Virus record (IMG/VR): IMGVR_UViG_3300022413_000014
Coordinates: 1-55,978 of that record
Reading direction: 5' to 3' (one strand)
DNA length: 55,978 nucleotides
From: a virus
In this document: positions 7,864 to 55,978 of the stretch, piece after piece
How positions within the stretch are numbered: position 1 is the first letter of the stretch
Layout: each line of letters begins with the position of its first letter
Program-made: the position numbers and the translations under genes
The notes under the pieces: generated by a model
Database searches by the model: none
What the model saw: the letters and a program-made list of their open reading frames with translations, nothing else
What the model was told of the DNA's origin: nothing

Positions 7864-8244
7864 TCAGTCGTCGTCGACTTCGCCGGTTTTAATGTCGAAG
7901 CTCCTGACATTACGCGCCGGGGGCGTGAACTTCACGACGTCATCCATGGTCATCTGCTGCGGGTCATCATTGCTGATGGTGCCATTAGTGGTCAGGAAGA
8001 ACGCGGTCGGTGATGGGGTCGCCGTCGGCAGCTTCGACGTGACTTCGCCGGTTAGGCTAAACTGGCCATTGCTTTCAGGCCGGATGTTGATAGTAAGCGT
8101 CATCTTGGCGGATTTTTGCAGGCTTTCGACCCTGCCGATTGCTTGCTGCAGCTGATCAGCGAAGCTGCTCAACAGCGTGCCGCGCTGCAGCGGCTTCACC
8201 ACATCGATGACATATTGCTCATGGGCTTGGAGGTCGTCGGTCAC
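7864..8244 (-). CDS. Hypothetical protein, 126 aa
   Basis: A 126-residue protein starting at GTG 8244, chosen because AAGGAAAAGG precedes it; the longer open frame upstream is a shadow of the HTH gene. It has a helical N-terminus, a strand-rich centre (MTLTINIRPES) and an acidic C-terminus (GEVDDD). It overlaps the HTH gene by 26 bases and precedes DUF2303. Function unknown. Confidence 0.65.
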   Translation of the reverse strand: MTDDLQAHEQYVIDVVKPLQRGTLLSSFADQLQQAIGRVESLQKSAKMTLTINIRPESNGQFSLTGEVTSKLPTATPSPTAFFLTTNGTISNDDPQQMTMDDVVKFTPPARNVRSFDIKTGEVDDD

Positions 8245-8617
8245 GAGTCCTTTTCCTTCCAGTTGAGGTTTTGCCGGCGGGTATTTTGCCGGCGGGCTTG
8301 CCCGTGCGTGGCCGCCTCTTGGCAGGGCCACGCTTGGGTTTCTCTTCCGCAGATGACTTGGCGACTGGACGTGCCATGGCGGCACGCCGTTTGATCACGA
8401 AGGCGGTTTCCCAGTCCATCAGCGTAACATAGGCGTCGGACATGACGTAGATGCGCTGAATGTTCTGGCAATCCGGGAAATGCGAGCCGTTGGCCCAGCG
8501 ATCAACGGTGCGCGTGACTACGTCCAGCTCGCGCGCGAGATCGGCACGCGACCAACCTTTGTCCGCCAGCCAGACGTCCATTTTGTGCGGGGTTTTGGTG
8601 ATGAGAGTTGTCGTCAT
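8219..8617 (-). CDS. HTH (XRE-like) transcriptional regulator, candidate repressor
   Basis: 132 residues. Residues about 15-65 form a helix-turn-helix of the Cro/CI/XRE type (WSRADLARELDVVTRTVDRW). The C-terminal third is a basic, proline-rich tail (KRGPAKRRPRTGKPAGK) with no dimerisation or protease domain. The leftward promoter 8624-8651 has its -10 so close that an mRNA starting near 8617 would begin at this ATG, so translation may be leaderless. Two copies of the genome-wide operator lie in the divergent region, making this the leading candidate for the protein that binds them; that is inferred. Confidence 0.8.
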   Translation of the reverse strand: MTTTLITKTPHKMDVWLADKGWSRADLARELDVVTRTVDRWANGSHFPDCQNIQRIYVMSDAYVTLMDWETAFVIKRRAAMARPVAKSSAEEKPKRGPAKRRPRTGKPAGKIPAGKTSTGRKRTRDRRPPSP

Positions 8618-39865: not shown

Positions 39866-39876
39866 GGCGGTTCGCT

Positions 39877-42088: not shown

Positions 42089-42140
42089 GGTTCACCCCTT
42101 TAGCTCTCACACTGGATTCAGGGGCGAAGATTTCATAGAA

Positions 42141-42154
42141 TGACAATCTTGTCA
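42141..42154. promoter_or_regulatory. Operator TGACAATCTTGTCA between divergent genes
   Basis: A copy of the genome-wide palindrome between the leftward membrane operon and the rightward winged-helix gene. Leftward it supplies TTGACA without a good -10; rightward a TTGTCA/TACAAA pair with an 18-bp gap is possible. It could control both directions. Confidence 0.55.
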
Positions 42155-42227
42155 AGATTCCTGCTTGAATGATACAAAGAAATAATGTACGGATCGCAGA
42201 CCGTTCAAATGTTAGGGAACAGAAAAG

Positions 42228-42888: not shown

Positions 42889-42890
42889 GC

Positions 42891-43112: not shown

Positions 43113-43175
43113 GTCAGTCCCTTCCATTCTCACATCTGACAACGCTATTAACTAAGTAGGAACGAGGGCGAGCCC

Positions 43176-43283
43176 ATGTCAAGGAAATGGCAGATCATGA
43201 TTGTTGTGCTAGTTGCTGTAATCGTCTTGTGGTTCATGGTCGAATTGATCGACTGGGCGCAGGTCATGGGCGAGGCATCCTGA
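43176..43283 (+). CDS. Tiny single-pass membrane protein, 35 aa
   Basis: Too short for standard gene finding. ATG 43176 with GAGGG upstream gives MSRKWQIMIVV then a hydrophobic stretch to residue 24 and an acidic tail, stop at 43281-43283. The basic start, single helix and acidic end make it look real. It lies in a gap between leftward genes, near the 43316 operator. Confidence 0.5.
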   Translation: MSRKWQIMIVVLVAVIVLWFMVELIDWAQVMGEAS

Positions 43284-43315
43284 TCAATCTGACGCTGGCG
43301 CACCCACGGCCATGT

Positions 43316-43329
43316 AGACAAGATTGTCA
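43316..43329. promoter_or_regulatory. Operator AGACAAGATTGTCA without clear promoter
   Basis: A copy of the palindrome with one outer mismatch, in the gap before the 43355 gene stop. No good -10 is seen in either direction, so it may act as a roadblock or secondary site. Confidence 0.45.
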
Positions 43330-43354
43330 GTTATCGTCACATACTGATCCCTGT

Positions 43355-43624
43355 CTACTGACGAGGAAATAGCCACTCCACGACGTTCAGCCCACGCCCA
43401 CGCCATCGAATGGCGCGAATGTCAGCCATCAGTAACAGCGTGATCGGCCACATCCCCGCCTGAAACAGGAAGATATGCGGTCGGAGCAGCCTCCAAGGTT
43501 TGGTCCGACCGCGCCGCTTTTCCTGATAACCGCTTTCCACGCCATCATAGAGCGCGATCAGACAACCGATGATTAGCCACCAGCTAAGCGACGTCCAGAA
43601 ATCAGGCAGGTCAGATAAACCCAT
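43355..43624 (-). CDS. Two-pass membrane protein, 89 aa
   Basis: 89 residues with two hydrophobic segments (about 12-28 and 50-67) joined by a basic loop (YQEKRRGRTKPWRLLRPH). No family is recognised. It lies just downstream of the 43637 basic protein in the same direction. Confidence 0.6.
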   Translation of the reverse strand: MGLSDLPDFWTSLSWWLIIGCLIALYDGVESGYQEKRRGRTKPWRLLRPHIFLFQAGMWPITLLLMADIRAIRWRGRGLNVVEWLFPRQ

Positions 43625-43636
43625 GTCGGCAGCCTA

Positions 43637-43792
43637 TCACCCCTTCCGACGTCGTTTGCGCGCCTTTTTGCGCTTATCTGCTTGATGGAATTCCTTGGCA
43701 ACGCTTGGCTTGATCCCAGCCTTCTTGGCGAAGGCCGGATTGTGCGCGGCAATCCTCATGAAACGCCGCTGCTTGGCGGTTTTCGACGGCAT
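43637..43792 (-). CDS. Small basic protein (MPSK...QRRFM type)
   Basis: 51 residues, below usual ORF limits. ATG 43792 has GGGGAG eight bases upstream. The start MPSKTAKQRRFM and the very basic C-terminus (RKKARKRRRKG) match a small phage family of unknown function often found near portal/minor head genes; it likely binds nucleic acid. Confidence 0.65.
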   Translation of the reverse strand: MPSKTAKQRRFMRIAAHNPAFAKKAGIKPSVAKEFHQADKRKKARKRRRKG

Positions 43793-43827
43793 GACTAGGG
43801 CTCCCCGGAAGTCTGTGGGGTCTATGG

Positions 43828-44064
43828 CTAGGGCTCATCAATCCATTCCTGGTATTCACCGCAGCATTCATGGAATGCGGTTATAGGCCAGATCGCCATG
43901 GGATATCGGCCTTCATTGGTCATAAAGGTCTTGCCGTCATGGATGACCGGGGCACGGCGACGGCAAAGCCCGTAGAACGGCCCACCGATCGGCGCTTCGT
44001 TCTGAACGCCTTCGAGTTCGACCTCATGCCAGAATCGGCAGGTGTCGCAGCATTCGCGCTTCAT
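43828..44064 (-). CDS. Cysteine-rich zinc-ribbon-like protein, 78 aa
   Basis: 78 residues with five or more cysteines (ECCDTCRFW at the start, GLCRRRAP mid, HECCGEY near the end), a likely zinc site. Its ATG overlaps the stop of the minor head gene. No family is recognised beyond the metal-binding pattern. Confidence 0.65.
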   Translation of the reverse strand: MKRECCDTCRFWHEVELEGVQNEAPIGGPFYGLCRRRAPVIHDGKTFMTNEGRYPMAIWPITAFHECCGEYQEWIDEP

Positions 44065-46520
44065 TCCAGATAATCCTCAGGATCAAGACCGGCGGCCAAA
44101 AACGCGTCCTTCTCCGTCTTGGCCAGCTCGGCAAGCGTAAGCGGTCGCCCGTGGCGGTCAACTAGCCTGCCGATCGATAGATTGCCCCTGCGGAACAGCC
44201 TGGACCGGGTCACGCCCAATAAGTTGCTCTGATCGGAAACGCTCAATCCGTTAAGAAAATCTTCTGACGACGGCACGCCGGGGATGCCGCCGACCTGTTG
44301 CCGGATGCTTTCACGCACGAAGCCATCGAAGCGTGCGCGCTGGCGCGCGGTGAGCTGACCGACCGAGCTGACCGGTTGCATGTTCTCGCGCCGGGTGAAG
44401 TCCCTGAGATAGCGGCGGCGCTCGTCTGACGTCAGTTGTTGCCGCACCAGCGCGGTGTTGGAGATGAACGGCACCCGCCGTGATCGGCAGTTGTGGTGGG
44501 CTGGAGGATATATTCCTTTTCCTGCGTCAAAAATCCTACCATTAAGGTCTAAGCAGATGTGGCTATTATGAGCAACCACCCCGCCGACGATAAAGCTATG
44601 ATCATCGGCTACTTCGATGTCATAGACGACCGCGCCGGCATTGACCGCCTCAACCCCGGCAACGGCAGCGTCATCTGGACATTCGTTCGTTTCGCTTCGG
44701 CCTGCATGTGACAGCGTCGACATCGCGTCGCCAGATTGCTCAACGCGTTCGCCTTCCGTGAATCCGTAAAGTTGTGGAACGGAATGATGTGGTCGACATC
44801 CAACGAACGCCCTGCCTCGGCTTTCTCCTTGGCCTCGGTCTTGCCACAGTCGACGCAAGTGTGGACATCCCGTTTCAAGACGCGCCGCCTGATAGCCTTC
44901 CAGCCGATGCCCCGAGCGCTCGACGTGCGACCGCCGCCTTTCCAGTTCGGATGAGCTTGTCCTGTGAAAGCCTTGCTGATCTTGTCCTTGCGCGCCTGGT
45001 TGTTTGACGTCCATGCACGATTGCATGCTTGCGAGCAGACCTTGCCGCCATTGTGCGCCACCATCGCCATGCCGAATTTGCGTTTGATCGGCTTGACCGG
45101 GGAAAACATGGCTCGGCAATTCACGCAACGGCGTGGCCTTGGCTTTTTGGCCGCCACCCGACAGGCATGCGAACAATATTTCTTCTTGGTTCCACCCGCC
45201 GGCAAGCGCTGCCCACAATGAGCGCATAAACCGCGTTGCTCGATCCGCCATTGATCGTAGCAAGCGCGCGAACAGAAAATCTTGTCTGACGCCCCGCTGA
45301 CCCGTGTCTGACAATGGCCGCGCAGGACTTCCTTGCCGCAGCGATGACACGCATTTCGATGTATGCGACGGCCCGCTGCCTTGCAGGCATTGCCGCAATA
45401 AGTTTGATGTGGATGACCTGAGAAAACGCGAAAGCGTTGACCACATGTCGCGCAGTGGCGATGATCGTTTGGCATGGGCGACTCCTCCAAAGTCATTCAT
45501 GCTCGCGAGGATCATCGTTTGTGCCGATGGTCCTCGCTGCGTTTTGGCAAGGCGGTCACCGTTCCTAAGCGTTCCGGCTTCCTGCCATGAGCCGTCAGGT
45601 CGAAGGAACAGATGATCGCTGGTGCAGGTAAAGCTTTCGCCATTGGCTAGCATCACGCGTACCAGATCATCACTATATTTCGCTTGCGTGGCCCGTACAA
45701 CCCGAGGCGCGCCGCTGCCGCCGATGACCAGGTCTCCAGGTTGTATCGTCTCTATGGGGCGTTTGCCAGTGGGCGTCTCGATCAGCGTGCCGGCAACAAA
45801 ACACGTCCTATCATCGAGCACGGCCGCCCAGATCTCTTTCTTGAACAGCCGCTTATTGGCCTCGGCGAACTCACGTCCGGCAGCGGCGGCGATGTGGGTG
45901 ACCGAAGTGCGCACGATGGTCTGCGCCTGGGCTCGGGTGATCTGGGTCGCGCCGTCACGACCGGCCAGCTCAGCGGTGCCGACGATGCGCGCAGCAATGG
46001 CGTTGACGGTCTCGCCCTGGGTTAGGCCGATGCGGATTTCGTTCATGATGCGGCGGCGCTCGTCCGCTTCAAGCAGCCGCGTCCAGTCCTTGAGGATACG
46101 GCCCTGAAACGGCCTCGACGTCACAATCTTTCTCAGCTCGGATGAGGTCGGCAGCCTGGCCGTAGTGCTGACCGGGGCCGCCATCTTGGTGAGGTTGGCG
46201 AGAAAGCGCGGCTCGTCCAGCGCGATGGCGCTGAGTTCGCCGGTCAGCTCATCCAAGAGACCGCTAAAGGCAGGCGACCTGACCTTCTCGATCGTCTGCT
46301 CCAGGCGGGAAAGGCGCTGGCGTGCCGTCCGGTCTAAAGCGAAGCCACCGCCCGCTGACGACTGCAGCGGCGCGGTCTTGGCGATGATCTGGTCCTTGAG
46401 GTCGCGCTCGGTCCTTTGCAGGTGATTTAGGATCTGGGAGCGCATCCGATTCGACACCCGTACCAGGCCGATCTGACGCCTGATGCTGCTGTCTAGGATG
46501 ATCTCGTTGGCCGTTGGCAT
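44061..46520 (-). CDS. Minor head protein (MuF/SPP1 gp7 type) interrupted by an intein
   Basis: 819 residues in one open frame. Residues 1-239 and 653-819 are the head protein: helical N-terminus, AQTIVRTSVTHIAAAAGREFA, then AVLDDRT joined after splicing to SHICLDLNGRIFD and the PPAHHNCRSR zinc-type motif of MuF proteins. Residues 240-652 are an intein (see next entry). The spliced product would be 406 residues. MuF proteins sit in the head near the portal and help assembly or DNA entry. Location beside the portal fits. Confidence 0.85.
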   Translation of the reverse strand: MPTANEIILDSSIRRQIGLVRVSNRMRSQILNHLQRTERDLKDQIIAKTAPLQSSAGGGFALDRTARQRLSRLEQTIEKVRSPAFSGLLDELTGELSAIALDEPRFLANLTKMAAPVSTTARLPTSSELRKIVTSRPFQGRILKDWTRLLEADERRRIMNEIRIGLTQGETVNAIAARIVGTAELAGRDGATQITRAQAQTIVRTSVTHIAAAAGREFAEANKRLFKKEIWAAVLDDRTCFVAGTLIETPTGKRPIETIQPGDLVIGGSGAPRVVRATQAKYSDDLVRVMLANGESFTCTSDHLFLRPDGSWQEAGTLRNGDRLAKTQRGPSAQTMILASMNDFGGVAHAKRSSPLRDMWSTLSRFLRSSTSNLLRQCLQGSGPSHTSKCVSSLRQGSPARPLSDTGQRGVRQDFLFARLLRSMADRATRFMRSLWAALAGGWNQEEILFACLSGGGQKAKATPLRELPSHVFPGQADQTQIRHGDGGAQWRQGLLASMQSCMDVKQPGAQGQDQQGFHRTSSSELERRRSHVERSGHRLEGYQAARLETGCPHLRRLWQDRGQGESRGRAFVGCRPHHSVPQLYGFTEGERVEQSGDAMSTLSHAGRSETNECPDDAAVAGVEAVNAGAVVYDIEVADDHSFIVGGVVAHNSHICLDLNGRIFDAGKGIYPPAHHNCRSRRVPFISNTALVRQQLTSDERRRYLRDFTRRENMQPVSSVGQLTARQRARFDGFVRESIRQQVGGIPGVPSSEDFLNGLSVSDQSNLLGVTRSRLFRRGNLSIGRLVDRHGRPLTLAELAKTEKDAFLAAGLDPEDYLE
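44565..45803 (-). mobile_element. Intein in the minor head protein, with a nested HNH gene
   Basis: The intein starts with Cys240 (TGT, 45803-45801) and ends with Asn652 (44567-44565), followed by Ser. Block A is CFVAGTLIETPTGKRPIETI, block B holds TSDH in GESFTCTSDHLFLRP, block F is VYDIEVADDHSF and the end is VVAHN-S, all hallmarks of protein splicing. Between blocks B and F the frame runs open across the HNH gene but its translation is low-quality, with no nuclease domain. The insertion point is the conserved DDRT-SHIC active region of the MuF domain. Confidence 0.9.
44609..45475 (-). CDS. HNH homing endonuclease nested out of frame in the intein
   Basis: 288 residues in a frame shifted +1 from the intein. 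ATG 45475 follows GGAGGA at ideal spacing. The protein has at least four Cys-x2-Cys zinc units (CATCGQRF, CHRCGKEV, CAHCGQRL, CVNCRAMF) and a C-terminal HNH core: CVDCGKTEAKEK, then DVDHIIPFHNF and CRRCHMQAE. It would cut intein-less alleles so the element spreads. The last residues overlap intein block F. In usual inteins the nuclease is in frame; here it is a separate, overlapping gene. Confidence 0.88.
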   Translation of the reverse strand: MPNDHRHCATCGQRFRVFSGHPHQTYCGNACKAAGRRIHRNACHRCGKEVLRGHCQTRVSGASDKIFCSRACYDQWRIEQRGLCAHCGQRLPAGGTKKKYCSHACRVAAKKPRPRRCVNCRAMFSPVKPIKRKFGMAMVAHNGGKVCSQACNRAWTSNNQARKDKISKAFTGQAHPNWKGGGRTSSARGIGWKAIRRRVLKRDVHTCVDCGKTEAKEKAEAGRSLDVDHIIPFHNFTDSRKANALSNLATRCRRCHMQAEAKRTNVQMTLPLPGLRRSMPARSSMTSK

Positions 46521-46529
46521 TGATAGTCA

Positions 46530-48044
46530 TCATTCGCCGTCATTGCTGCGGGAATCGTTTTCGTTTTCGTCACCGGGCTGCTCGAAGGGCTGGCCAAAAC
46601 CGCCATTGGCCGGGGCCATGGATGACATCGCGGCCTTGTCGAGGATATCGGCTGGAATGACGCCCTCTTCCAGTTCAATCTCCTCGATCTCCTCTTCGAG
46701 GGTGCGGCTGGTAACATCACGCTTGAGCATAATCTCGTTGATGGTGCGATAGGAAATGACGCCGCCGCGCTGCTTGAAGGTCAGCATTTCATTCAGCTCG
46801 CTGGCCTCCATCGGATCGTCGGCAAAATCAAGATTGGGCTCGATAAGCACGCCGGCATCATCGACGCCTAGCCAGCGCGCGGCCATGCGCAGCGCTTCCT
46901 GCATGCCGGCGGCCGAGGCCTTGGCGATCGACGTCAGGCTGGCGGTCTGGGCGGCTACACGGATGCGTAGGGCATCACCGGACTCGACCGCAGAGCCACG
47001 CTGCACCAGGCGCGCCGATAGCGCGTTGGCGATCTGGTAGTCCTCGCCGAGGTTGTTGAGCTGGAACTGGATGCCCCGGCTGTCGACGCCGATGAACTTA
47101 GCGTCGCCGCCCTCCTGCATGGCGATGCGCGCGCCGGGGCCGATTTGGATGTCCTCGGTGAGCGTGTTGCCGATGGTGACCAAGGTTTCCTGCCCGGTCA
47201 TGAATAGCGCGTGCCGAAGGTCAGCCTCGCCTAGATAGATCGACATCGAGCGGTTAGCGAGGCCAAGCAGCGGCGGCAGATCGACATTGATGTCGATGTC
47301 GTGGGGGCCGATGAATACGAACGGGATTTCGCCCAAGGTCTGGCCGCGCAGCAGCACCGGCTGGGTTGCGCTGACGTCGAAGGTTTCATCCTCCATGAAC
47401 ATGCCCGAGCTATAGGTGCCGGCGCTCTCGTTCTCAGCGAATTCACCTAGGACCAGGACGCGGTATTTGCGTTCGGTCTTCCATTCCAGCCCGTCGCGGA
47501 CGTTCTCGGTTTCATCCAGCACGACGATGTTGAGGTTTTGCTTGGTGGGATCGCCGGCCTCGCCGTCATCCCAGTTGATTACGCTTTCCGCCGTGTAGGT
47601 CGACAGCAGCGGCAGGATCGACGGGATCTGTACTGGATCTTGCGGAACGTCGACATGAAGCCCCATGCGACCGGTCACTAGCTGTTGCTCGTGGATCTTG
47701 CGCAAGAGATCGACCAGGCTTTCGCCAAGGATGGTCGCCTTGTCCCTAAGCGGTTCCATGGCCTCGGGAAGCTGGATTGACGGCGGCTTGCGGTTGAGGA
47801 TGCCGACCAGAATGTCGACCGTGTCCTTCATCACCTCGGGGAAGACCGCGCGTCGAAGATAGGCTTGATAGCGGCGAAGCCCGTTCTGGCCGGTCAGCAT
47901 GCCTTCAAGATACATGCCTTCGGTCGCGGGGAGATAGGCGAGCCCCTTGGCCTTGACTGCATTCTGGCCGGCATGGCTATCGCGACAAAGCGTCCAAAGG
48001 TCGATGTGGGCCTGATAATCGGGATGCGTGCTGTCGATGGTCAT
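46530..48044 (-). CDS. Portal protein (DUF4055-like)
   Basis: 504 residues. The pattern (AYLPATEGMYLEGMLTGQNGLRRYQAYLRRAVFP near the start, then ESLVDLLRKIHEQQLVTGRMG and GEIPFVFIGPHDIDINVDLPPLLGLA, NRSMSIYLGEADL later) matches DUF4055 portal proteins. A long C-terminal helix and acidic end follow. Twelve copies form the DNA channel of the head. It is directly before the minor head gene, as is normal. Confidence 0.85.
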   Translation of the reverse strand: MTIDSTHPDYQAHIDLWTLCRDSHAGQNAVKAKGLAYLPATEGMYLEGMLTGQNGLRRYQAYLRRAVFPEVMKDTVDILVGILNRKPPSIQLPEAMEPLRDKATILGESLVDLLRKIHEQQLVTGRMGLHVDVPQDPVQIPSILPLLSTYTAESVINWDDGEAGDPTKQNLNIVVLDETENVRDGLEWKTERKYRVLVLGEFAENESAGTYSSGMFMEDETFDVSATQPVLLRGQTLGEIPFVFIGPHDIDINVDLPPLLGLANRSMSIYLGEADLRHALFMTGQETLVTIGNTLTEDIQIGPGARIAMQEGGDAKFIGVDSRGIQFQLNNLGEDYQIANALSARLVQRGSAVESGDALRIRVAAQTASLTSIAKASAAGMQEALRMAARWLGVDDAGVLIEPNLDFADDPMEASELNEMLTFKQRGGVISYRTINEIMLKRDVTSRTLEEEIEEIELEEGVIPADILDKAAMSSMAPANGGFGQPFEQPGDENENDSRSNDGE

Positions 48045-48163
48045 GGGCGGGCTTGGCTCCGTGGCGACGGCGATCGCCAGAGCCTAGCCAGGCCTGTCAA
48101 GCAGCGTGATGATCGAAGCGAAGTGCTATTGACGTTTGATGATGGTGCCGGCAAGCCTACGCC

Positions 48164-48304
48164 ATGAAACTTGACCGCTATCTAGAGACCTTGCGCCGTA
48201 TGCTGCGCGACCTGTGGGCGACGTCCATGGTCGGCGGCGGCATTGCCATGATTGTGCTGATCGCTGGCGCGCTCCTCATCGCTTGGGCGCTCAATGCGGG
48301 TTAA
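48164..48304 (+). CDS. Small membrane protein, 46 aa
   Basis: 46 residues, below usual ORF limits: basic, amphipathic N-terminus (MKLDRYLETLRRMLRDLW) and one hydrophobic helix (about 22-43). Its stop overlaps the next small gene. First gene of a rightward cluster divergent from the portal. Confidence 0.5.
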   Translation: MKLDRYLETLRRMLRDLWATSMVGGGIAMIVLIAGALLIAWALNAG

Positions 48305-48398
48305 AAGCTGGATATTCTGGCTGGCAGTTCTGGTCAGCGGACTTGGCGGCGGTGTCGCCGCCGGCGTGGCCATCATCATCTTGAGGGACGGGCTTTAA
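48294..48398 (+). CDS. Small membrane protein, 34 aa
   Basis: 34 residues: MRVKSWIFWLAVLVSG then a Gly/Ala-rich helix and a basic end. The start overlaps the previous gene and the stop is in a TAATG junction with the next, which supports translation. A hydrophobic micro-protein of unknown role. Confidence 0.5.
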   Translation: MRVKSWIFWLAVLVSGLGGGVAAGVAIIILRDGL

Positions 48399-48673
48399 TG
48401 ATCAAGACGGCGGACATCCCTATCGGTCGGCGCTGGCATGACACCGAGTCCGACCAGGTAAAGGTATGGGACGGCGAAGCCTGGCAACTCGACTACCGTG
48501 AGCTTTTAAAGCGCTACATGGCCAACGTCGAGGCGCGCGAAGGCGTGTATTTCATCGAGCCTGGATGGGATGAAAACCCGGATTACGATGTGACCCCTTA
48601 TCCCGGTCTGTCGGACGCCGACCAGATCGAACTCGGCAAGATCGCGAGCGAGATCAGCTATTATGACGGATGA
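48398..48673 (+). CDS. Paralogue of the 39937 protein
   Basis: 91 residues. DYRELLKRYMANVEAREGVYF and the C-terminal PGLSDADQ match the protein at 39937-40245. TAATG links it to the preceding micro-gene. Function unknown; duplication on opposite strands is unusual. Confidence 0.65.
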   Translation: MIKTADIPIGRRWHDTESDQVKVWDGEAWQLDYRELLKRYMANVEAREGVYFIEPGWDENPDYDVTPYPGLSDADQIELGKIASEISYYDG

Positions 48674-48914
48674 GTCATTCCGGAGTATTGTGATGAACAA
48701 GAACCACGCGACCGGCGCTGAAGTCGATGCGCTTTTGGCTGCGATGCCGGATCGCTGCATCGTCTGGCTAAGCGTCGACTCCGAAAGCTATTTCGTTAGG
48801 GCTGTTGGGACCAGGCCTCATGAACAGCCTGATATGCTCGCCTTCAAAAGATCACGTTCAGGCATCGATCAGGCCGTTGCGTTGGCGCGCATGGCCGCTG
48901 CCGAGCAGTCCTGA
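48663..48914 (+). CDS. Hypothetical protein, 83 aa
   Basis: 83 residues with helix-strand mix (EVDALLAAMPDRCIVWLSVD). No family is recognised. ATG 48663 or ATG 48693 (MNKNHATGAEV) may be used; both overlap or closely follow the previous gene. It overlaps the next by one base. Confidence 0.55.
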   Translation: MTDESFRSIVMNKNHATGAEVDALLAAMPDRCIVWLSVDSESYFVRAVGTRPHEQPDMLAFKRSRSGIDQAVALARMAAAEQS

Positions 48915-49180
48915 TGCCGCTTATTCGTGTTCTTGAGATCCCGCCGCCGACTGGGACATATCATTTCCGTAGCGGCGAGCCCCAGACCTTCATCGAGGTC
49001 GATTGGTTCCGTGATGATGATTACATCGAGGGCCACCCGGACGCGCCGGTGATGACCACCGAGCGCGGTCGCGAACTGATCATCGCGTTCATTAAGCAGA
49101 AGCGCTATTTCAAGCCCGGCAAGGCGTTTCTGGTGCTGCACCAGGACTACAGCATGACCATCGGCTATAGCGCGCCTTAA
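48914..49180 (+). CDS. Hypothetical protein, 88 aa
   Basis: 88 residues, mixed, with IEVDWFRDDDYIEGHPDAPVM in the middle. No family is recognised. It starts in a TGATG junction and ends convergent with the 49177 gene. Confidence 0.6.
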   Translation: MPLIRVLEIPPPTGTYHFRSGEPQTFIEVDWFRDDDYIEGHPDAPVMTTERGRELIIAFIKQKRYFKPGKAFLVLHQDYSMTIGYSAP

Positions 49181-49482
49181 TAGGGCGTGACGCAGGCGTG
49201 CGCTAGACAGGCGTAATCGGTGGTCCAGTAGCCGACGACGGTACGCCCGTCCGCTAGCTCACCACGACCATAAACCAGCTCGGCATGCTCATATTCTGGA
49301 GGCGTCAGCAGGTCATCGGCATCGCCGGCTGTCACCGTCTCCAGCGAGCGGCAGATTTCCAGCACGATGATACGGCTTTCGGGGGGCAGCAAGCTGCAAA
49401 ACCCGATGATGGTGCCGCGCTGGCGATCTCTGACGGGAATTCCCGGATCGCCTTGGGGAAGGCTTTGGTCCAGGGAAGACAT
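49177..49482 (-). CDS. Hypothetical protein, 101 aa
   Basis: 101 residues from ATG 49482 (AAGGAACC upstream); the open frame above it is a shadow of a hairpin region. Strand-helix mix with a Tyr/Trp-rich end (VVGYWTTDYACLAHACV). No family is recognised. It follows a structured gap that starts with a strong hairpin. Confidence 0.6.
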   Translation of the reverse strand: MSSLDQSLPQGDPGIPVRDRQRGTIIGFCSLLPPESRIIVLEICRSLETVTAGDADDLLTPPEYEHAELVYGRGELADGRTVVGYWTTDYACLAHACVTPY

Positions 49483-49498
49483 GGCTAGGTTCCTTGTC

Positions 49499-49538
49499 GA
49501 GACGGGCGCGGTGGAAGGATTGAGCCCGCGCCCGTCTC
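49499..49538 (-). repeat. Perfect 13-bp hairpin in the leader of gene 49482
   Basis: GAGACGGGCGCGG (49499-49511) pairs fully with CCGCGCCCGTCTC (49526-49538), with a 14-base loop. It sits just before the ribosome binding site of the leftward gene, so it could regulate its translation or stop upstream messages. Confidence 0.6.
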
Positions 49539-49572
49539 TAGGAGAACATCGGGGCAATCTTATTCATTTCAA

Positions 49573-49639
49573 ATGAAAAAAGCAAAAAAGGGCGGTGGCT
49601 TGTCATTTGCCCGAAGGCAGGGGAGAACAAGACACCGCC
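49573..49639 (-). terminator. Leftward intrinsic terminator
   Basis: Leftward, GGCGGTGTCTTGT (49639-49627) pairs with ACAAGCCACCGCC (49603-49591) with one mismatch, followed by TTTTTTGCTTTTTTC. It ends transcription coming from the 50069 promoter region. Confidence 0.7.
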
Positions 49640-49772
49640 GAAATCGATTGACCTTGTATAGGTCAAAGCCCATGCCAGCTGCGAGGTCCGTCACAGGAAT
49701 GCAACTGACAATAGGTAATTTAGGGCTATTGACGGTGAATGACTAGGGGGGCTAGCTGTCTGTGGGGAAGGC

Positions 49773-49893
49773 GGGCCGATGACCGTATGTTGTGATGGCA
49801 TTCCCATCGAGCCACCGTACGGGATTCTTCATCACTGGGTAGCAGTGGTCATCGGCCCCACCATCGGTCTGCGTCTGGCTGGCGAGACAGACC
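49773..49893. ncRNA. Structured non-coding stretch, possible RNA
   Basis: GGGCCGATGACC (49773-49784) pairs perfectly with GGTCATCGGCCC (49847-49858). Inside, CCGTA (49783-49787)/TACGG (49818-49822) and GTGATG (49792-49797)/CATCAC (49830-49835) interleave. A GGTCTG/CAGACC hairpin follows (49866-49893). No ORF covers the 49483-50079 gap. It may be a structured RNA or a control region; no known family was recognised. Confidence 0.4.
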
Positions 49894-49916
49894 GTTCATG
49901 AAACCATCATCAACAA

Positions 49917-49925
49917 TTATCAACG
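49917..49925. promoter_or_regulatory. DnaA-box-like sequence
   Basis: TTATCAACG in an AT-rich stretch, one mismatch from TTATCAACA. It lies in the non-coding gap and is of interest because the phage encodes a DnaA domain IV protein. Single sites occur by chance. Confidence 0.25.
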
Positions 49926-49942
49926 GTTATTTTCCATCCGAC

Positions 49943-49972
49943 GGAAAAGGGGGCCGACTGGTGCCGGCCCCC
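49943..49972 (-). terminator. GC-rich hairpin terminator, leftward
   Basis: GGGGGCCG (49949-49956)/CGGCCCCC (49965-49972) with leftward TTTTCC. It lies about 70 to 100 bases after the 50055-50083 promoter, so a short leader RNA of about 90 bases is expected. Confidence 0.6.
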
Positions 49973-50054
49973 TCCCCTTCGTACATTGCGGGATTTCACG
50001 ACGGGTTTTCTGATCGCCTCCTTTCGCTAGCTCTCACCACTAATCGAGACCGTG

Positions 50055-50083
50055 ATCATGATCTGTGCTGACAACGTTGTCAA
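50055..50083 (-). promoter_or_regulatory. Leftward promoter with perfect operator
   Basis: TTGACA (50083-50078), 17-bp spacer, CATGAT (50060-50055). TGACAACGTTGTCA (50069-50082) is a perfect palindrome over the -35 box. It points into the gene-free 49483-50079 gap, not directly at a gene. Confidence 0.6.
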
Positions 50084-50367
50084 GTATCAGCATCGGTGAT
50101 CACGAATACATCCTCGACGCCGATGCGCATCAGCCGGAGATACCCGGTCTTGATCTCGACCGAGAGCATGTGCCCGCGCGGCACCTCGATATATCCGTTG
50201 CTCTGTGCGTCGCACACGAGCCACATGCGATCATAGCCGTGGTGACTTTCGGCAAAATAACAGTCACCAGGAAGCAGGACGCGCGTGTTGACCTTGACGA
50301 TGTCAAGCCCGGCCGGCATCTCGCCGTCGCCACGTAGGGCTGCCCATAGCTTCCTGATGACCGTCAT
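50080..50367 (-). CDS. Hypothetical protein, 95 aa
   Basis: 95 residues from ATG 50367 (GAGGAG upstream). Strand-rich (TRVLLPGDCYFAES, then IEVPRGHMLSVEIKTG). No family is recognised. Its stop overlaps the operator at 50069-50082. Confidence 0.6.
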   Translation of the reverse strand: MTVIRKLWAALRGDGEMPAGLDIVKVNTRVLLPGDCYFAESHHGYDRMWLVCDAQSNGYIEVPRGHMLSVEIKTGYLRLMRIGVEDVFVITDADT

Positions 50368-50372
50368 GATGA

Positions 50373-50759
50373 TTACTCCTCGAAAACGTATCCGCGATCT
50401 TCCAGCCACTTCCTTTGCGACGGGGTCAGATCGATATAGCCGTTAGCACCTGGCGTCATAAGGCGCTTGGCGTCTTCGTGTTGCCATCTTTCTATCTTGG
50501 CCCCCACGGTCTCAACCTGGTATTCCTTGGCCGTGACATCTCCGAAGCGCTCGCGGGCTACCGCGTACCATGCGCGCTGCTCTGGCGTCAGATCCTCATG
50601 TCCTGGCAACGGCACCCACATCTCGCTGACGCCATCGAAGTGGTGGGTGCAGCTGATCAGCGCTTCCATGGCGTCGGTCTGCTCCTTCGATCCGGTGACC
50701 TTCATGGCATCGCCATCGCCGACCAGATCGATCCACATCTCGTAGTTCTGCATTGCCAT
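50373..50759 (-). CDS. Hypothetical protein, 128 aa
   Basis: 128 residues, acidic, with Trp/His-rich N-terminal half and LTPSQRKWLEDRGYVFEE at the end. AGGAGAG precedes ATG 50759. No family is recognised; part of the leftward small-gene run between terminase and portal. Confidence 0.6.
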   Translation of the reverse strand: MAMQNYEMWIDLVGDGDAMKVTGSKEQTDAMEALISCTHHFDGVSEMWVPLPGHEDLTPEQRAWYAVARERFGDVTAKEYQVETVGAKIERWQHEDAKRLMTPGANGYIDLTPSQRKWLEDRGYVFEE

Positions 50760-50770
50760 TGTGCTCTCCT

Positions 50771-51340
50771 TTACGCTTTCTTCTCCAACGTCGCCCGCGT
50801 GCTGAGCTTGTGCATGTCGAGCAACAGCGCCAAGGCCTGCTTGGCGTGATCATAGGGGACGTATACGTCGACCTTGATCCTGACCTCGTCCCCGTTGCCT
50901 ACGGCAGAAGCCCATGGCGAATATCGACTCATGAATTCGCGCATCTCATTGGTGAACAGATCTTCGATACGTTGCTTAGCTGCCTTGCGCTCGGAACTTA
51001 ACTGCCGGCTATGGACTTTCTGGCCGACCAACATTCGCAGACGCTCGGCGATCTTCTTGATGTTGTACGCGCCTGACCTATTCGGCTTATAGGTCACCGC
51101 CGGTGACGTCCTGATGTTGATCTCTGCATAGCCCGTGTCCTCGCGATGCCACGAATCGCCCCGGCAATACTGGCGAATTGTCAGATCGAAACCGTCGAGA
51201 TTCTCGCCGTTGACGGTCCATCTGCGCTGCCGCCCGGTTTGATCATCATGCGAAAGCGCGACGCCTTCGCCAGCGAGCTGCTCGATGAGCCATGCTGTCC
51301 ATGCAGACTCGTCGTACGTGGTTGGCTGTTCGGTGGACAT
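50771..51340 (-). CDS. Hypothetical protein, 189 aa
   Basis: 189 residues, mixed with a Glu/Arg-rich C-terminus. The AEINIRTSPAVTYKPNRSGAY strand region and a long basic helix (LSSERKAAKQRIEDLF) stand out. GGAAGGGG precedes the ATG. The family was not identified. Confidence 0.6.
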   Translation of the reverse strand: MSTEQPTTYDESAWTAWLIEQLAGEGVALSHDDQTGRQRRWTVNGENLDGFDLTIRQYCRGDSWHREDTGYAEINIRTSPAVTYKPNRSGAYNIKKIAERLRMLVGQKVHSRQLSSERKAAKQRIEDLFTNEMREFMSRYSPWASAVGNGDEVRIKVDVYVPYDHAKQALALLLDMHKLSTRATLEKKA

Positions 51341-51421
51341 TGCTTTCCCCTTCCTTGGTTGGTGGTCTCAGTCGGTGACCGCCCGTAGACGGCCACCTGC
51401 TGACATCACCTCCTTTGCTGA

Positions 51422-51535
51422 TTAAGCCGCTAGCTCGGCCATCTTCTCGGTCAGGTGCCACATGAGGCATAGGACCAGCGCGACGAGCGCGCCGACCCCG
51501 ATGGCCTTGACGATGGCCTTATCGACCTGGTTCAT
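51422..51535 (-). CDS. Small membrane protein, 37 aa
   Basis: 37 residues from ATG 51535, whose ribosome binding site lies in the end of the 51519 gene (GAGGAGATCGAGG). A basic N-terminus and one hydrophobic helix (about 12-28) with an acidic tail. A micro-protein of unknown role. Confidence 0.5.
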   Translation of the reverse strand: MNQVDKAIVKAIGVGALVALVLCLMWHLTEKMAELAA

Positions 51536-51929
51536 CCTCGATCTCCTCGCCCAGAGCTGGAATGAAGCTGGCATCCAGATCCCAATCCCAAGCGAACCGG
51601 CTGAGCGCAATCGCGAACCCTTCAGGACTTTCAATGGCGGTCTGTTCGAGGTTGTCATGAACGCCCTGCAGTTCCGTCAGGAATTGATCCTCACACTCAG
51701 CGAAGAGCGGGGCGATGCTAGGGGCCTGCTTCAACATCTCGATGACGCCCAGGCCCTCGGTGACCTCTCCATAAAGCTCGTTGGGGATCAGATGTCCGAT
51801 GGCGCATTTGTTGCCATCGGGGTCACGATAGGCGCAGGTTGAGCCGTCATCGACCAACGAAAAGTCGTTCTGAGCGATCAGCGCTTTGGCCGCCGTCTCG
51901 AACGCGGTCTGATGGGTGTAGGGTGTCAT
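51519..51929 (-). CDS. Acidic hypothetical protein, 136 aa
   Basis: 136 residues, acidic, with a CAYRDPDGNKCAIGHLIP motif near residue 35 (two cysteines and a histidine, perhaps metal-binding). No family is recognised. A terminator hairpin lies just upstream, so it may have its own transcript. Confidence 0.6.
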   Translation of the reverse strand: MTPYTHQTAFETAAKALIAQNDFSLVDDGSTCAYRDPDGNKCAIGHLIPNELYGEVTEGLGVIEMLKQAPSIAPLFAECEDQFLTELQGVHDNLEQTAIESPEGFAIALSRFAWDWDLDASFIPALGEEIEDEPGR

Positions 51930-51947
51930 TTCTCGTTCCTTCCAATG

Positions 51948-51969
51948 AAAAGGCCCGCCGAAGCGGGCC
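51948..51969 (-). terminator. Leftward intrinsic terminator
   Basis: Leftward GGCCCGC-TTCG-GCGGGCC (51969-51952) then TTTTC. The same GCCCGC-CGAA-GCGGGC core recurs at 52509-52524. Confidence 0.7.
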
Positions 51970-51976
51970 AGGGTGA

Positions 51977-52186
51977 TCAGGTCCAGCCGAAGCGGGACTT
52001 GAGGTCATCAAGTTCCTTGCGCGTTCGCGCGTCGAACCCGTCCCGCCTAGTCTGGGGCCACCAGCTTTGATGGCGGTCAGGGTTGGCTAAGCGCGCCTCA
52101 AGCGACTTACGCTTGCTCTCGCCGGCCTTGCGGTCGACGGCGTCAAGCTCGGCCTTCAGTCGGTCGAATGCACTATTGACGGTCAT
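51977..52186 (-). CDS. Basic hypothetical protein, 69 aa
   Basis: 69 residues, Lys/Arg/Asp-rich with ELDAVDRKAGESKRKSLEARL as a helix. No family is recognised. Confidence 0.6.
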   Translation of the reverse strand: MTVNSAFDRLKAELDAVDRKAGESKRKSLEARLANPDRHQSWWPQTRRDGFDARTRKELDDLKSRFGWT

Positions 52187-52239
52187 GATGGTCTCCTTGG
52201 TTGAACGATCCTTAGGGGTGCCTGCCGTGGTTGTGCTGG

Positions 52240-52449
52240 TTAGCAGCGTTCCAGGCGGGTTGTTTTTACGAATTCATATCGCTCGCTGACGATGTGCTGG
52301 ATGCGGGCGAAGTTGCCTTTTGACGTCCTGGCCAAGCCGATGATCTGCCACGTTCCGGCAGCCTCGGCCTCGGGGTGCTTCATGACGATGTGATCTCGGC
52401 CGATAACCTGGCCCTTGGCATCTTTTGTTGAGTTGATAAATGCTAGCAT
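52240..52449 (-). CDS. Hypothetical protein, 69 aa
   Basis: 69 residues from ATG 52449 (AGGAGAC upstream); the longer frame is a shadow. Strand-rich, with GQVIGRDHIVMKHPEAEAAG and GLARTSKGNFARI. No family is recognised. A hairpin follows the upstream gene. Confidence 0.6.
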   Translation of the reverse strand: MLAFINSTKDAKGQVIGRDHIVMKHPEAEAAGTWQIIGLARTSKGNFARIQHIVSERYEFVKTTRLERC

Positions 52450-52508
52450 GGGATGTCTCCTGCTCTTTAGGCAGGCACTCCCAAGGGTCGTCGCATTGGC
52501 TTGAAGGT

Positions 52509-52524
52509 GCCCGCCGAAGCGGGC
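52509..52524 (-). terminator. Hairpin after the 52530 gene
   Basis: GCCCGC-CGAA-GCGGGC; the same core as the 51952 hairpin but without a good U-run. It may be a weak terminator or an mRNA end-protecting structure. Confidence 0.45.
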
Positions 52525-52529
52525 TTGGC

Positions 52530-52853
52530 TCATTCAATGTCGGCGACAAGATCTGCAAGTGATTCGGTGCGGGCGTTTGCACTGTAGTCGGACAGGACGT
52601 CGATGCCGTTGCCGTGAATGAATAGCATCCATCCAACGCGCTTTGATGCACCCGGAAGAGCATCATCAGTTAGCTTGATGATTGTCTCGTCTGACGATCC
52701 GACATGATAGCCGATCTCTTTGAGGTCAGAACTGTCGACCAGGGTCTCATCTTCGCCGTCGCTGACGGTCACCTTCATGCTTGCATCTATGGCTGCTTTT
52801 AGGATGCGCTCGATGATAAGTCGCTCGATGATGTCAATCTGCGATATGGACAT
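52530..52853 (-). CDS. Hypothetical protein, 107 aa
   Basis: 107 residues from ATG 52853 (GGAGG upstream). Helical N-terminus (IDIIERLIIERILKAAIDAS), then acidic strand-rich part. It is the first gene after the 53043 operator-promoter. A leader of about 170 bases with a GATCGG/CCGATC hairpin lies between. Confidence 0.6.
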   Translation of the reverse strand: MSISQIDIIERLIIERILKAAIDASMKVTVSDGEDETLVDSSDLKEIGYHVGSSDETIIKLTDDALPGASKRVGWMLFIHGNGIDVLSDYSANARTESLADLVADIE

Positions 52854-53028
52854 GGAAGCCTCCAAGCTTAGGGTGGACACTTCCAAGCCAATGTCTTGTT
52901 CTCTGCGCTCCCTACTGGAAGCCCTTCGGGCCCGCGACCTATCCGTCTGACTGTCTGATCCTTGGCTAGAAGGACCGGGCTATCTGGGATCGGTTGGCTC
53001 CGATCGCTTGCCCTTTAACCATGAAACA

Positions 53029-53057
53029 AGTGTACGGACCTATGACAAGCTTGTCAA
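53029..53057 (-). promoter_or_regulatory. Leftward promoter with perfect operator
   Basis: TTGACA (53057-53052), 17-bp spacer, TACACT (53034-53029). TGACAAGCTTGTCA (53043-53056) is a perfect palindrome over the -35 box. The bases after the -10 match the 55526 promoter (TACACTTG.TT.ATGG). Confidence 0.75.
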
Positions 53058-53088
53058 CGATGTCGGATAAAAAAATTGCGTTTTGTTT

Positions 53089-53331
53089 TTACCCTGATGA
53101 CGTCCCCTCCTTGGGATTGTTCAGTGTCGTCAGGCAGGCGCGTGCCATGGCCTCAGTCAGGCTGTAAGGGTCGTTTCCCCTAATCGGCACGCTGATCGAT
53201 GGATAACGCGCCATCACCAGAACGTGACGCTGATCAATCGGTGAAAAGTCGACTTCATAGGACGAGAGGCCAGGCTGGCTGATCACGGCGCGGAAGCCGC
53301 CACCGGGCTCGGTCAAGATGACGGGCTTCAT
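53089..53331 (-). CDS. Hypothetical protein, 80 aa
   Basis: 80 residues from ATG 53331 (AAGGAC upstream). Short strands (GGGFRAVISQPGLSSYEVDFS) and a C-terminal SLTEAMARACLTTLNN helix. No family is recognised. It ends just before the 53029 promoter and overlaps the next by four bases. Confidence 0.6.
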   Translation of the reverse strand: MKPVILTEPGGGFRAVISQPGLSSYEVDFSPIDQRHVLVMARYPSISVPIRGNDPYSLTEAMARACLTTLNNPKEGTSSG

Positions 53332-53714
53332 AACGGTGTCCTTTTGATCTGGATGTCTGTGCCGCCGCAGTGCTTGCAACGCGCGGTGATGATCTGGTCG
53401 GACTCAGGCTCGTCATCATCAGGGACATAGTCAGGATGCTGCTCGTCCACATGCAGCGTCACCTCACCTCGATCACCCCTCTTGAACGAGATGTCGCAGA
53501 AGCGTTGCAGGCCAGCGGGGAGGAACGCCAGATTGAGGCGAAGGACGCCGTATAGGAGCGCTGCTGCCACCACGATCAGCGCGACGGCGAACCCGGGACC
53601 AGCGTCAGGGACTCGCTCGCGATAGCTACCGAAGACAGCATCGGAAAAGGCCACGATGCCGAGAAGCGCTAGCGGGATGCTGGCTGCTGACTTGATCAGC
53701 TGCGATAGGGTCAC
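53328..53714 (-). CDS. Membrane protein with C-terminal zinc ribbon
   Basis: 128 residues: two hydrophobic helices (about 8-27 and 41-58), then a soluble acidic part and a CKHCGGTDI end that looks like half a zinc ribbon. Function unknown. It overlaps both neighbours by four bases. Confidence 0.6.
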   Translation of the reverse strand: MTLSQLIKSAASIPLALLGIVAFSDAVFGSYRERVPDAGPGFAVALIVVAAALLYGVLRLNLAFLPAGLQRFCDISFKRGDRGEVTLHVDEQHPDYVPDDDEPESDQIITARCKHCGGTDIQIKRTPL

Positions 53715-54031
53715 TTGTCCGCCCCCTTGAAGATGGCATCTGCCAGCTCATCGAAGGTGGTTGCGCTGATCACTTCGACCTTGGCGTCAGGTCCTCGGCC
53801 TTCGCGCACCCAATCAGCAAAGCTCATGTCGGCCGGGCAGCGCGCCTTGATGTGGTCAAGCTCGTTAAAGCGCTTGGCATCGGCCTCCAAGCCTGGTGCG
53901 CAGTTCGGGCAGGTGGCCTTCGCGCCGAAGATGAAGCCGCCGGACTGATCGCTTGACGTCCAATCTTCATTGCACCAGTCGCACAGCACCAGCGCGCCGA
54001 GGTGGGTGATGGTCTCACGAGTGATGGTCAT
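53711..54031 (-). CDS. Zinc-finger-like hypothetical protein, 106 aa
   Basis: 106 residues with a four-cysteine pattern LCDWCNEDW and ATCPNCAPG (about residues 16-45), a zinc-binding ribbon. The rest is helical and acidic. No family is recognised. Overlaps both neighbours by four bases. Confidence 0.65.
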   Translation of the reverse strand: MTITRETITHLGALVLCDWCNEDWTSSDQSGGFIFGAKATCPNCAPGLEADAKRFNELDHIKARCPADMSFADWVREGRGPDAKVEVISATTFDELADAIFKGADK

Positions 54032-54261
54032 GACCGTTCCTTCCCATCTTTATCGACCGCGCTGTCAAGATCATCCATCAGCACAGCAAGCGAGCGTGCC
54101 ATCAGGCTGTCCGCCGTTGGGTGCAACGTGCTGACGTTCATTATGATCAGCGGGATCGCTTTCTTTATGTTGACCCCAGATGGGTATATCCGAGCTGTGA
54201 TCACGCTATAGGAGGCAATAACCTCAGCCTGATGGCGCTTGCTGTTGATGATCCGGCTCAT
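54028..54261 (-). CDS. Hypothetical protein, paralogue of 54574
   Basis: 77 residues. IINSKRHQAEVIASYSVITARIYP aligns with TTRSKHHKAHLTAAISCNEIQIYP of the 54574 protein, and both end with a similar helix (LAVLMDDLDSAVDK and LLDALDQKVEQ). Function unknown. The ATG overlaps the stop of 54258. Confidence 0.65.
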   Translation of the reverse strand: MSRIINSKRHQAEVIASYSVITARIYPSGVNIKKAIPLIIMNVSTLHPTADSLMARSLAVLMDDLDSAVDKDGKERS

Positions 54262-54581
54262 GACCTGGCCACCTTGATCGCGATGTGCTGGACGTGCTCG
54301 CCGTGGGGGATGTCAGGGATCTTGATCGAGGCTTTCTTATAGCCGTCATGGTCATAGTCGATGCGGCTGTCGATGATCTCACCTTTGACGGGGCCACCCT
54401 CATGGGTGCGGTCACGATAAACCGCGATATGCGCCCAATAGGTGCCGTCAGACGTGCGCGTGACCTCGACGTTGCCGCCGGGGAACTCGATTGCTGCGGT
54501 CGAAGGCTCGGGGTGCTTGCGGTCGCCCTCGAATACGATCACGCAGCTGTCGGTGCTATGGGTGACCTTGGCTCTAGCCAT
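54258..54581 (-). CDS. Strand-rich hypothetical protein, 107 aa
   Basis: 107 residues with repeating strands (SCVIVFEGDRK, AAIEFPGGNVEVT, YWAHIAVYRDR, KKASIKIPDI). No family is recognised. It lies between the two paralogues 54028 and 54574. Confidence 0.6.
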   Translation of the reverse strand: MARAKVTHSTDSCVIVFEGDRKHPEPSTAAIEFPGGNVEVTRTSDGTYWAHIAVYRDRTHEGGPVKGEIIDSRIDYDHDGYKKASIKIPDIPHGEHVQHIAIKVARS

Positions 54582-54822
54582 GTTCCACCTTCCTATTCAG
54601 TTCCAGTGCCTGCTCGACCTTCTGGTCAAGCGCATCCAACAGCGTGGACACGGCCAACGCCGCGAGACTGTCGCTTATTAGGTTGATGTGGCTGACATTG
54701 ACGGTCATCAGCGGCGATGCCGTCTTGACGTTGGCGTTGATCGGGTAGATCTGGATCTCGTTGCATGAGATCGCGGCCGTCAGATGCGCCTTGTGATGCT
54801 TGCTTCTGGTGGTGCTGGCCAT
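54574..54822 (-). CDS. Hypothetical protein, paralogue of 54028
   Basis: 82 residues. N-terminal strand region and C-terminal helix align with the 54028 protein at about one residue in three. It overlaps the 54258 gene by eight bases. The pair suggests duplication around 54258. Function unknown. Confidence 0.65.
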   Translation of the reverse strand: MASTTRSKHHKAHLTAAISCNEIQIYPINANVKTASPLMTVNVSHINLISDSLAALAVSTLLDALDQKVEQALELNRKVEHG

Positions 54823-54831
54823 GGTGGACTC

Positions 54832-55146
54832 CTATTTGAAAGCGCCTGGAACTCGCGGCAAGACCGGACGGCCCTGCGCACGCGTCAGCGCATCGTCGAA
54901 GCTGTTGGCCGGGCGGAAGCCCGAGCGATAAGTAGCGAAGGCGGCTTCCAGCTCAGCCTCGTCTATGTCCTTCAGCCTGTACTTGCCAAGGCACTCGGCC
55001 GCGAGCACGTCGTCGCTGTCGCTGATCAGCCGCTGCTCGATCGAGGCCATGCTTTTGTCGAGAGCGCCGCGCGTCAGCCAGCGCTGCACGATGGCCGCAA
55101 GCATGCCGTCACGCGTGGTGTAGTGCTTATCCTGGAAGATGTTCAT
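54832..55146 (-). CDS. Helical hypothetical protein, 104 aa
   Basis: 104 residues, mostly helix (MLAAIVQRWLTRGALDKSM, then RLKDIDEAELEAAFATYR), ending with a proline-rich tail. No family is recognised. Upstream gene ends six bases before. Confidence 0.6.
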   Translation of the reverse strand: MNIFQDKHYTTRDGMLAAIVQRWLTRGALDKSMASIEQRLISDSDDVLAAECLGKYRLKDIDEAELEAAFATYRSGFRPANSFDDALTRAQGRPVLPRVPGAFK

Positions 55147-55152
55147 TGCCGG

Positions 55153-55485
55153 TTACCCTGCCTCAGCGGTCACAAAACCCTCATATTCACAAAGGGCCTC
55201 GACCTCGTCGATCGTCTCTTGATCCTGTCCGTCTCGGACCACTGTGACAGCTTCGCTGCCACGCACGTCTACTCGATAGACGTGGTAGCCGGTGCGCGTG
55301 TCTGCTGGGTTATTGCGTTGGAAATCGTAGCTTCTTCCATGCTCGCCTATATCAGAATCGATCAATTTAGCGGCGGCAATTCCAGCCTTTTCGGCGTCGC
55401 TGTAATCGCTGTTGCTATAACCGACCAAGTCGCGGCTATCTCCAAAAATGTAACCGCTGCCGTTATCTATAAGGATTACGTGCAT
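55153..55485 (-). CDS. Hypothetical protein, first gene after terminase
   Basis: 110 residues, acidic, strand-helix mix (MHVILIDNGSGYIFGDSRD). No family is recognised. It is the first gene after the 55526 promoter, in a run of small genes between terminase and portal. Confidence 0.6.
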   Translation of the reverse strand: MHVILIDNGSGYIFGDSRDLVGYSNSDYSDAEKAGIAAAKLIDSDIGEHGRSYDFQRNNPADTRTGYHVYRVDVRGSEAVTVVRDGQDQETIDEVEALCEYEGFVTAEAG

Positions 55486-55525
55486 GTCTCATCTCCTACC
55501 TGCACTACGGTTTACCCATAAAGCA

Positions 55526-55554
55526 AGTGTATGGATAAAAGACAAGCTTGTCAA
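55526..55554 (-). promoter_or_regulatory. Leftward promoter with operator
   Basis: TTGACA (55554-55549), 17-bp spacer, TACACT (55531-55526). AGACAAGCTTGTCA (55540-55553) overlaps the -35 box. The region just after the -10 matches the 53029 promoter. Confidence 0.75.
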
Positions 55555-55567
55555 GCATCGGAATGGC

Positions 55568-55599
55568 AGGGCGGGGCTTACCCTGATGCTAGGGCGGGG
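55568..55599. repeat. Two 9-bp direct repeats after the terminase gene
   Basis: AGGGCGGGG at 55568-55576 and 55591-55599, in the gap between the terminase stop and the next promoter. Role not known. Confidence 0.4.
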
Positions 55600-55602
55600 A
55601 TG

Positions 55603-55978
55603 TCAAAACCCGCCTGCTACCTTGCCCTTGGTGCCCAGCATCGACAGCTTGAAGAATGCCGAACTTCTAAGTGCATCGGCGTAGTGCGAACTCCAATTAT
55701 GATTCGGTCGCCGATTGACCTCGCGCTTTTCGTCCCGATCCCATTGATAGGCCTTGAGCGCACGCAGGCCTTCGGCACATTCGATTTCGTCGAATTCGAA
55801 GAACGGAAAGATATTTCGAATCTCATTGATGCCGAGAATAGGGTCACCGCGCGCCATCACACGCACGGGTTGGCCGGTCAAGCGCTTGACGCAGTTCTCG
55901 GTGCTCTCGCCGCTGTTGCGGTCGCGGTTGGCTCCGTCATGGGGCAGGACATGGCCACGATAGCTGATGCCCAGCTCG
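55603..55978 (-). CDS. terL: Large terminase subunit, C-terminal part
   Basis: The frame is open to the right edge, so only the last 124 or so residues are seen. YRGHVLPHDGANRDRNSGES, GINEIRNIFPFFEFDEIEC, then GLRALKAYQWDRDEKR and NHNWSSHYADALR are the nuclease-domain end of phage TerL; the Asp in SHYADALR is a likely metal-binding residue. TerL packages DNA into the head. The gene is leftward, with about 7.5 kb of small genes between it and the portal. Confidence 0.85.
   Translation of the reverse strand, partial: ELGISYRGHVLPHDGANRDRNSGESTENCVKRLTGQPVRVMARGDPILGINEIRNIFPFFEFDEIECAEGLRALKAYQWDRDEKREVNRRPNHNWSSHYADALRSSAFFKLSMLGTKGKVAGGF

Follow-up and report, generated by a model that had tools for sequence, protein, structure and literature searches.

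Dispersed repressor operators are known in temperate phages, as for the C1 repressor of phage P1 and in mycobacteriophage L5. Short terminated phage RNAs include the OOP and 6S late-leader RNAs of lambda, and the put RNAs of HK022 are structured leader RNAs with antitermination. Here, we analysed a virus record of 55,978 bases from IMG/VR (IMGVR_UViG_3300022413_000014), from an uncultured bacteriophage, referred to below at its full length as the window, in which a gene-free stretch resembles each of these systems in part. As with P1 C1 and L5, one operator recurs in many promoter copies, some of them beside a repressor-like gene; by contrast, the site found here, GACAANNTTGTC, is symmetric, and its binding and the temperate lifestyle of the phage are putative. 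As with lambda OOP and 6S, a probably regulated promoter is followed by a probable terminator within about 100-200 bases and by no convincing ORF, whereas this RNA has no known antisense partner or antitermination protein and no sequence relation to the lambda RNAs. The structured RNA leading from the promoter to the terminators recalls HK022 put, but no sequence or family match connects the two, and antitermination is hypothetical in the present case. Among the papers listed by a literature search on phage small RNAs, no closer precedent appeared. The gene-free stretch most likely makes a short non-coding RNA, and would then be a known kind of phage control region.

Judging from its structural proteins, the phage is distantly related to Nipunavirus and Roseobacter phage RDJL3. 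The portal shares 40-46% identity with the portals of Nipunavirus JG054, Vibrio phage VpKK5, RDJL3 and phage Simon, and for the major head protein the identity to Nipunavirus phages (Queuovirinae) and RDJL3 is about 47%. The portal alignment covered the best 80 of 406 viral relatives, together with 27 genome loci; identity reached at most 48% among these best 80 of 406, and at most 44% at full length among the genome contigs, with one short segment at 52%. In RDJL3, the terminase genes adjoin the portal, while small rightward genes and the gene-free region lie there in this phage. No terminase turned up in the contig when it was queried with those of RDJL3, though the portal is present and RDJL3 has both side by side, suggesting that the contig is probably incomplete. 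The gene of the head-morphogenesis protein (44061-46520, minus strand) carries an apparent intein, by reading of the sequence from CFVAGT... to ...VVAHN|S; an ORF inside it (44609-45496, minus strand) is HNH nuclease-like in appearance, and the phrog_241 match of the protein is split over two stretches.

The stretch itself, a 597-bp gap at 49483-50079, is the longest in the gene model and lies between two minus-strand genes (Table 1). A preliminary description made from the letters had called it a region of about 600 bp without genes, and neither codon use nor family search produced a convincing ORF. Six ORFs of 38-57 aa are present, with codon-use scores of -2 to -33 bits; none matched a Pfam or PHROGs family at E <= 1, and no convincing relative was found for the plus-strand ORF 49898-50071. 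The codon score is weak as evidence, since the probable repressor ORF 8219-8617, which the gene caller used for the gene model had missed, scores negative too. No second copy of the stretch exists anywhere in the window. DNA searches of phages and plasmids gave nothing or only brief matches of the kind expected by chance. Viral contigs were scanned at the protein level for the portal, the 49177 gene, the 50373 gene and the Rrf2-like gene without yielding relatives, and the 50771 gene likewise had no relative in a protein search of phages. The loci compared (L002-L113), many on contigs too short to reach the corresponding place, held no homologue of a flanking gene at E <= 1e-3 and no above-chance match to the stretch, and the promoter-operator pattern was not found in a scan of viral contigs. 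The stretch is without relatives in the collections searched, which may omit records very near the window. Structure predictions for the product of the 49177 gene and for the Rrf2-like protein, with mean pLDDT of 44 and 43, were left unused.

Table 1 Features of the gene-free stretch, its flanking genes and the candidate regulator
Feature	Position	Strand	Remarks
Upstream gene	50080..50367	-	95 aa, no assigned function; ends the leftward cluster
Sigma70-type promoter TTGACA-17-CATGAT, leftward	50055..50083	-	10/12 consensus matches
Palindromic operator TGACAACGTTGTCA	50069..50082	.	One of eight GACAANNTTGTC sites
Predicted short untranslated RNA	49945..50048	-	Both ends predicted
AAAGGAGG, Shine-Dalgarno-like	50017..50024	-	No start codon 2-13 bases after AGGAGG
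GC-rich hairpin with short U-run, probable leaky terminator	49948..49973	-	Perfect 9-bp inverted repeat
86-nt element with perfect 12-bp closing stem	49773..49858	-	Between the two terminator hairpins
Intrinsic terminator, hairpin 49639-49591 then two T-runs	49574..49639	-	-24.5 kcal/mol
Perfect 13-bp hairpin	49499..49538	-	Immediately 5' of the gene 49177-49482 ribosome site
Downstream gene	49177..49482	-	101 aa, no assigned function
Probable CI/Cro-like repressor, candidate operator binder	8219..8617	-	HTH; operators 8638 and 8680 just upstream

The sequence GACAANNTTGTC occurs in eight exact copies in the window (at 1983, 8638, 8680, 42142, 43317, 50070, 53044 and 55541), against 0.04 expected under a first-order model. 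No other spaced 5-base inverted pair is as frequent in the window, and none of the eight copies falls inside a called gene. At the leftward promoter 50083-50055, the perfect palindrome TGACAACGTTGTCA overlaps the promoter and covers the -35 box, while the -10 box has four of six consensus matches. A full TTGACA -35 box is found on at least one strand at seven of the eight operators, the best at 43317 reaching 5/6; the -10 boxes differ among the sites, those at 43317 and 42142 being poor. A consensus scan of 38000-55978 returned four promoter-like sites compared with a mean of 7.0 in shuffles, a count no higher than chance, so that the scan itself carries no weight; its three best matches (10/12) are the operator sites 55541, 53044 and 50070. 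Together, the eight-copy operator and the repressor-like gene beside two of the copies strongly support the operator-controlled leftward promoter of the preliminary description, and suggest that this promoter is probably one of several under repressor control. The eight dispersed GACAANNTTGTC operators make up a predicted regulon spread over the genome. An identical 14-mer, GTATGATGCCCATG (plus strand), was also observed at about 8697-8710 and 11127-11140, where it precedes gene 8726-8959 and the RecT-like gene 11168-12202; its copies adjoin an exact and a one-mismatch operator.

CI/Cro-like control regions typically have divergent genes around repressor operators. Operators 8638 and 8680 are placed in this way, flanked by the divergent gene 8726-8959 (plus strand) and ORF 8219-8617 (minus strand). 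The product of this ORF has a helix-turn-helix (Pfam HTH_23, E 7e-5, 23.0 bits, below the cut-off of 24.6), matches a PHROG of transcriptional regulators (E 6.7e-5) and is 42% identical over 71 residues to a transcriptional repressor of phage C72C1 (E 5e-8). It is the probable binder of the GACAANNTTGTC operators, an assignment that is not settled because a second regulator-like ORF, 42228-42584 (plus strand), also has an operator upstream, at 42142. This second ORF resembles Rrf2 regulators (29.3 bits, cut-off 30); it had only two weak matches in phages, and a search of solved structures with its protein gave nothing.

Transcription from the leftward promoter would start at about 50048. The predicted RNA carries GAAAGGAGGCGAUC, a strong Shine-Dalgarno-like sequence, which we take to be nearly complementary to the 16S rRNA tail. 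The preliminary description had proposed that a GC-rich terminator ends a short RNA. The hairpin is indeed present, at 49973-49948 and about 100 bases from the predicted start, but its designation as a terminator is weak: four U follow the stem and neither of two terminator scans lists it, suggesting that it may be leaky. As a whole, the predicted RNA (109 nt) folds with a moderate z of -2.3 against shuffles, and its 5' 59 nt are unstructured (z -0.4). A duplex search of the predicted RNA against the phage's own gene starts gave no signal, 49 of 60 shuffles being equally good. With a repressor-type promoter, a strong hairpin within about 100 bases and no ORF after it, it is plausible that the stretch encodes a regulatory RNA; whether this RNA acts in trans is more doubtful, and we lean against it. 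A second AAAGGAGG followed by a strong hairpin was noted at 51341-51421 (minus strand), just before a gene start, with the second lowest folding z among 85 gene starts.

No Rfam family matched the window at curated scores. In a 1-kb scan, BjrC68 (RF02353) scored 24.1 bits at 49939-50014 (E 0.0009, cut-off 39 bits), where a hairpin followed by a GC-rich terminator gives a likeness to this sRNA; the family was not listed when the whole window was scanned. Its model also produced sub-cut-off matches in 9 of 14 unrelated control genomes, and 65 of 5592 window segments matched its non-terminator part as well or better. The BjrC68 assignment was therefore rejected. Passages on BjrC68 in PMC4842269 and PMC5471319 add nothing on its function.

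The stretch as a whole is rich in structure. Perfect inverted repeats of 13 bp (49499-49538), 12 bp (49773-49858) and 9 bp (49948-49973) amount to three in 597 bp, compared with 0.6 per kb elsewhere in the window, a density about eight times higher; among perfect repeats with arms of at least 12 bp, two of the four in the whole window are found here. The 12-bp repeat and the 13-bp hairpin of the preliminary description exist as described, both perfect. The leftward strand (566 nt) folds with z = -6.5, matched by none of 100 shuffles, and seven of the ten best-folding 650-nt minus-strand blocks of the window overlap the stretch; taken singly on the minus strand, the hairpins and the 86-nt element reach z of -4.3 to -5.3. 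In the minimum-energy prediction, the 86-nt element adopts a three-way junction on the minus strand and one long hairpin on the plus strand. The second terminator with two U-runs, also part of the preliminary description, is convincing and leftward. In its predicted fold, the 13-bp hairpin also draws part of the gene 49177-49482 ribosome site into pairing, and the start of this gene has the lowest folding z (-4.7) among 85 gene starts.

These observations are consistent with a control region between genes, at the left margin of the leftward gene cluster. The operator family, the promoter match, the hairpins and the missing start codon after the Shine-Dalgarno-like site are read directly from the sequence. 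A phage repressor, probably the HTH protein of 8219-8617, would sit on the -35 palindrome and keep the promoter 50083-50055 off; when it is absent, polymerase would start near 50048 and make an untranslated RNA of about 100 nt, ending mostly at the GC-rich hairpin 49948-49973. Read-through would be stopped by the stronger terminator 49639-49591, insulating gene 49177-49482, the start of which would be further shaped by the hairpin against its ribosome site. We infer the operator-binding protein, the start and end of the transcript and whatever regulation the RNA may exert, and we favour, with modest confidence, a short non-coding RNA made under repressor control at an operon boundary. The window shows a network of operators dispersed over a phage distantly related to Nipunavirus and RDJL3, and one output of this network is probably a non-coding RNA. 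Should that RNA be active, it would represent a phage small RNA linked to the repressor switch; if it is inactive, the locus would still be a compact example of how one phage transcription block is separated from the next.

The stretch might instead be an ordinary operon boundary without a functional small RNA, an interpretation that we consider possible but tentative. Its two terminators would close the leftward cluster that ends with gene 50080-50367, the operator-promoter would serve gene 49177-49482 via read-through, and the remainder would be spacer, or what a gene has left after decay, namely its promoter, Shine-Dalgarno sequence and terminator. Such a boundary with a lost gene would also account for a good part of the observations. 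The terminators do come after the last gene of a same-strand cluster, the strong Shine-Dalgarno-like site without a start codon resembles a remnant, and the 5' part of the RNA is unstructured. However, the promoter stands 601 bases from gene 49177-49482, with two hairpins and the 86-nt element between them, and perfect inverted repeats are about eight times denser than in the rest of the window, both of which argue against a mere boundary. The same structures could serve an RNA-based antitermination leader, in which the transcribed 86-nt element would let polymerase pass the terminator at 49591 and read leftward into gene 49177-49482, perhaps as far as the late genes from the portal (48044) on. 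The promoter is followed by the first hairpin, the structured element, the second terminator and then the gene, an order that fits such a leader, as does the failure to find a consensus promoter just upstream of the portal gene. Yet no RNA family matches, the rightward genes 48398-49180 separate the stretch from the late genes, and several folds other than the modelled three-way junction are possible, and we consider this leader unlikely. Quite unlikely, too, is an undescribed class of RNA antitermination leader that works without protein and is built from the repressor-controlled promoter and the 86-nt three-way junction; it would decide whether leftward transcription passes the terminators into the genes beyond.

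A role of the stretch as a replication origin or a DNA-packaging site, as also entertained in the preliminary description, is very unlikely. An AT-rich patch with a DnaA-like box had been described. The AT-richness is real, with 50-bp patches of 0.62-0.68 that are equalled by 51 and 7 of 11186 window positions, and it speaks for such a site; the box was not found, as the stretch contains no match to TTATNCACA with one mismatch allowed, and the window as a whole shows no excess of such sites (12 versus 17.5 expected). The raw cumulative GC skew peaks at 49798, within the stretch, which would also suit an origin, but after detrending the maximum shifts to 38343, with a range that does not exceed that of block shuffles (P = 0.4). 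The replication genes, at 2767-5302, lie about 45 kb away and are adjoined by a longer inverted repeat at 5690-5775. With no DnaA boxes, no significant skew turn and distant replication genes, the origin idea is not supported. Packaging found no support either; a packaging site would be expected beside terminase genes or at a genome end, and no terminase matched in this contig. The repeat at 5690-5775 is intergenic, 86 nt overall, with perfect arms of 15 bp. A common family with the element at 49773-49858 is not claimed, because the two share only a short stem string. No fold in the window is more unusual than the hairpin at 5690-5775 (z about -7 to -9), itself a possible origin or RNA element.
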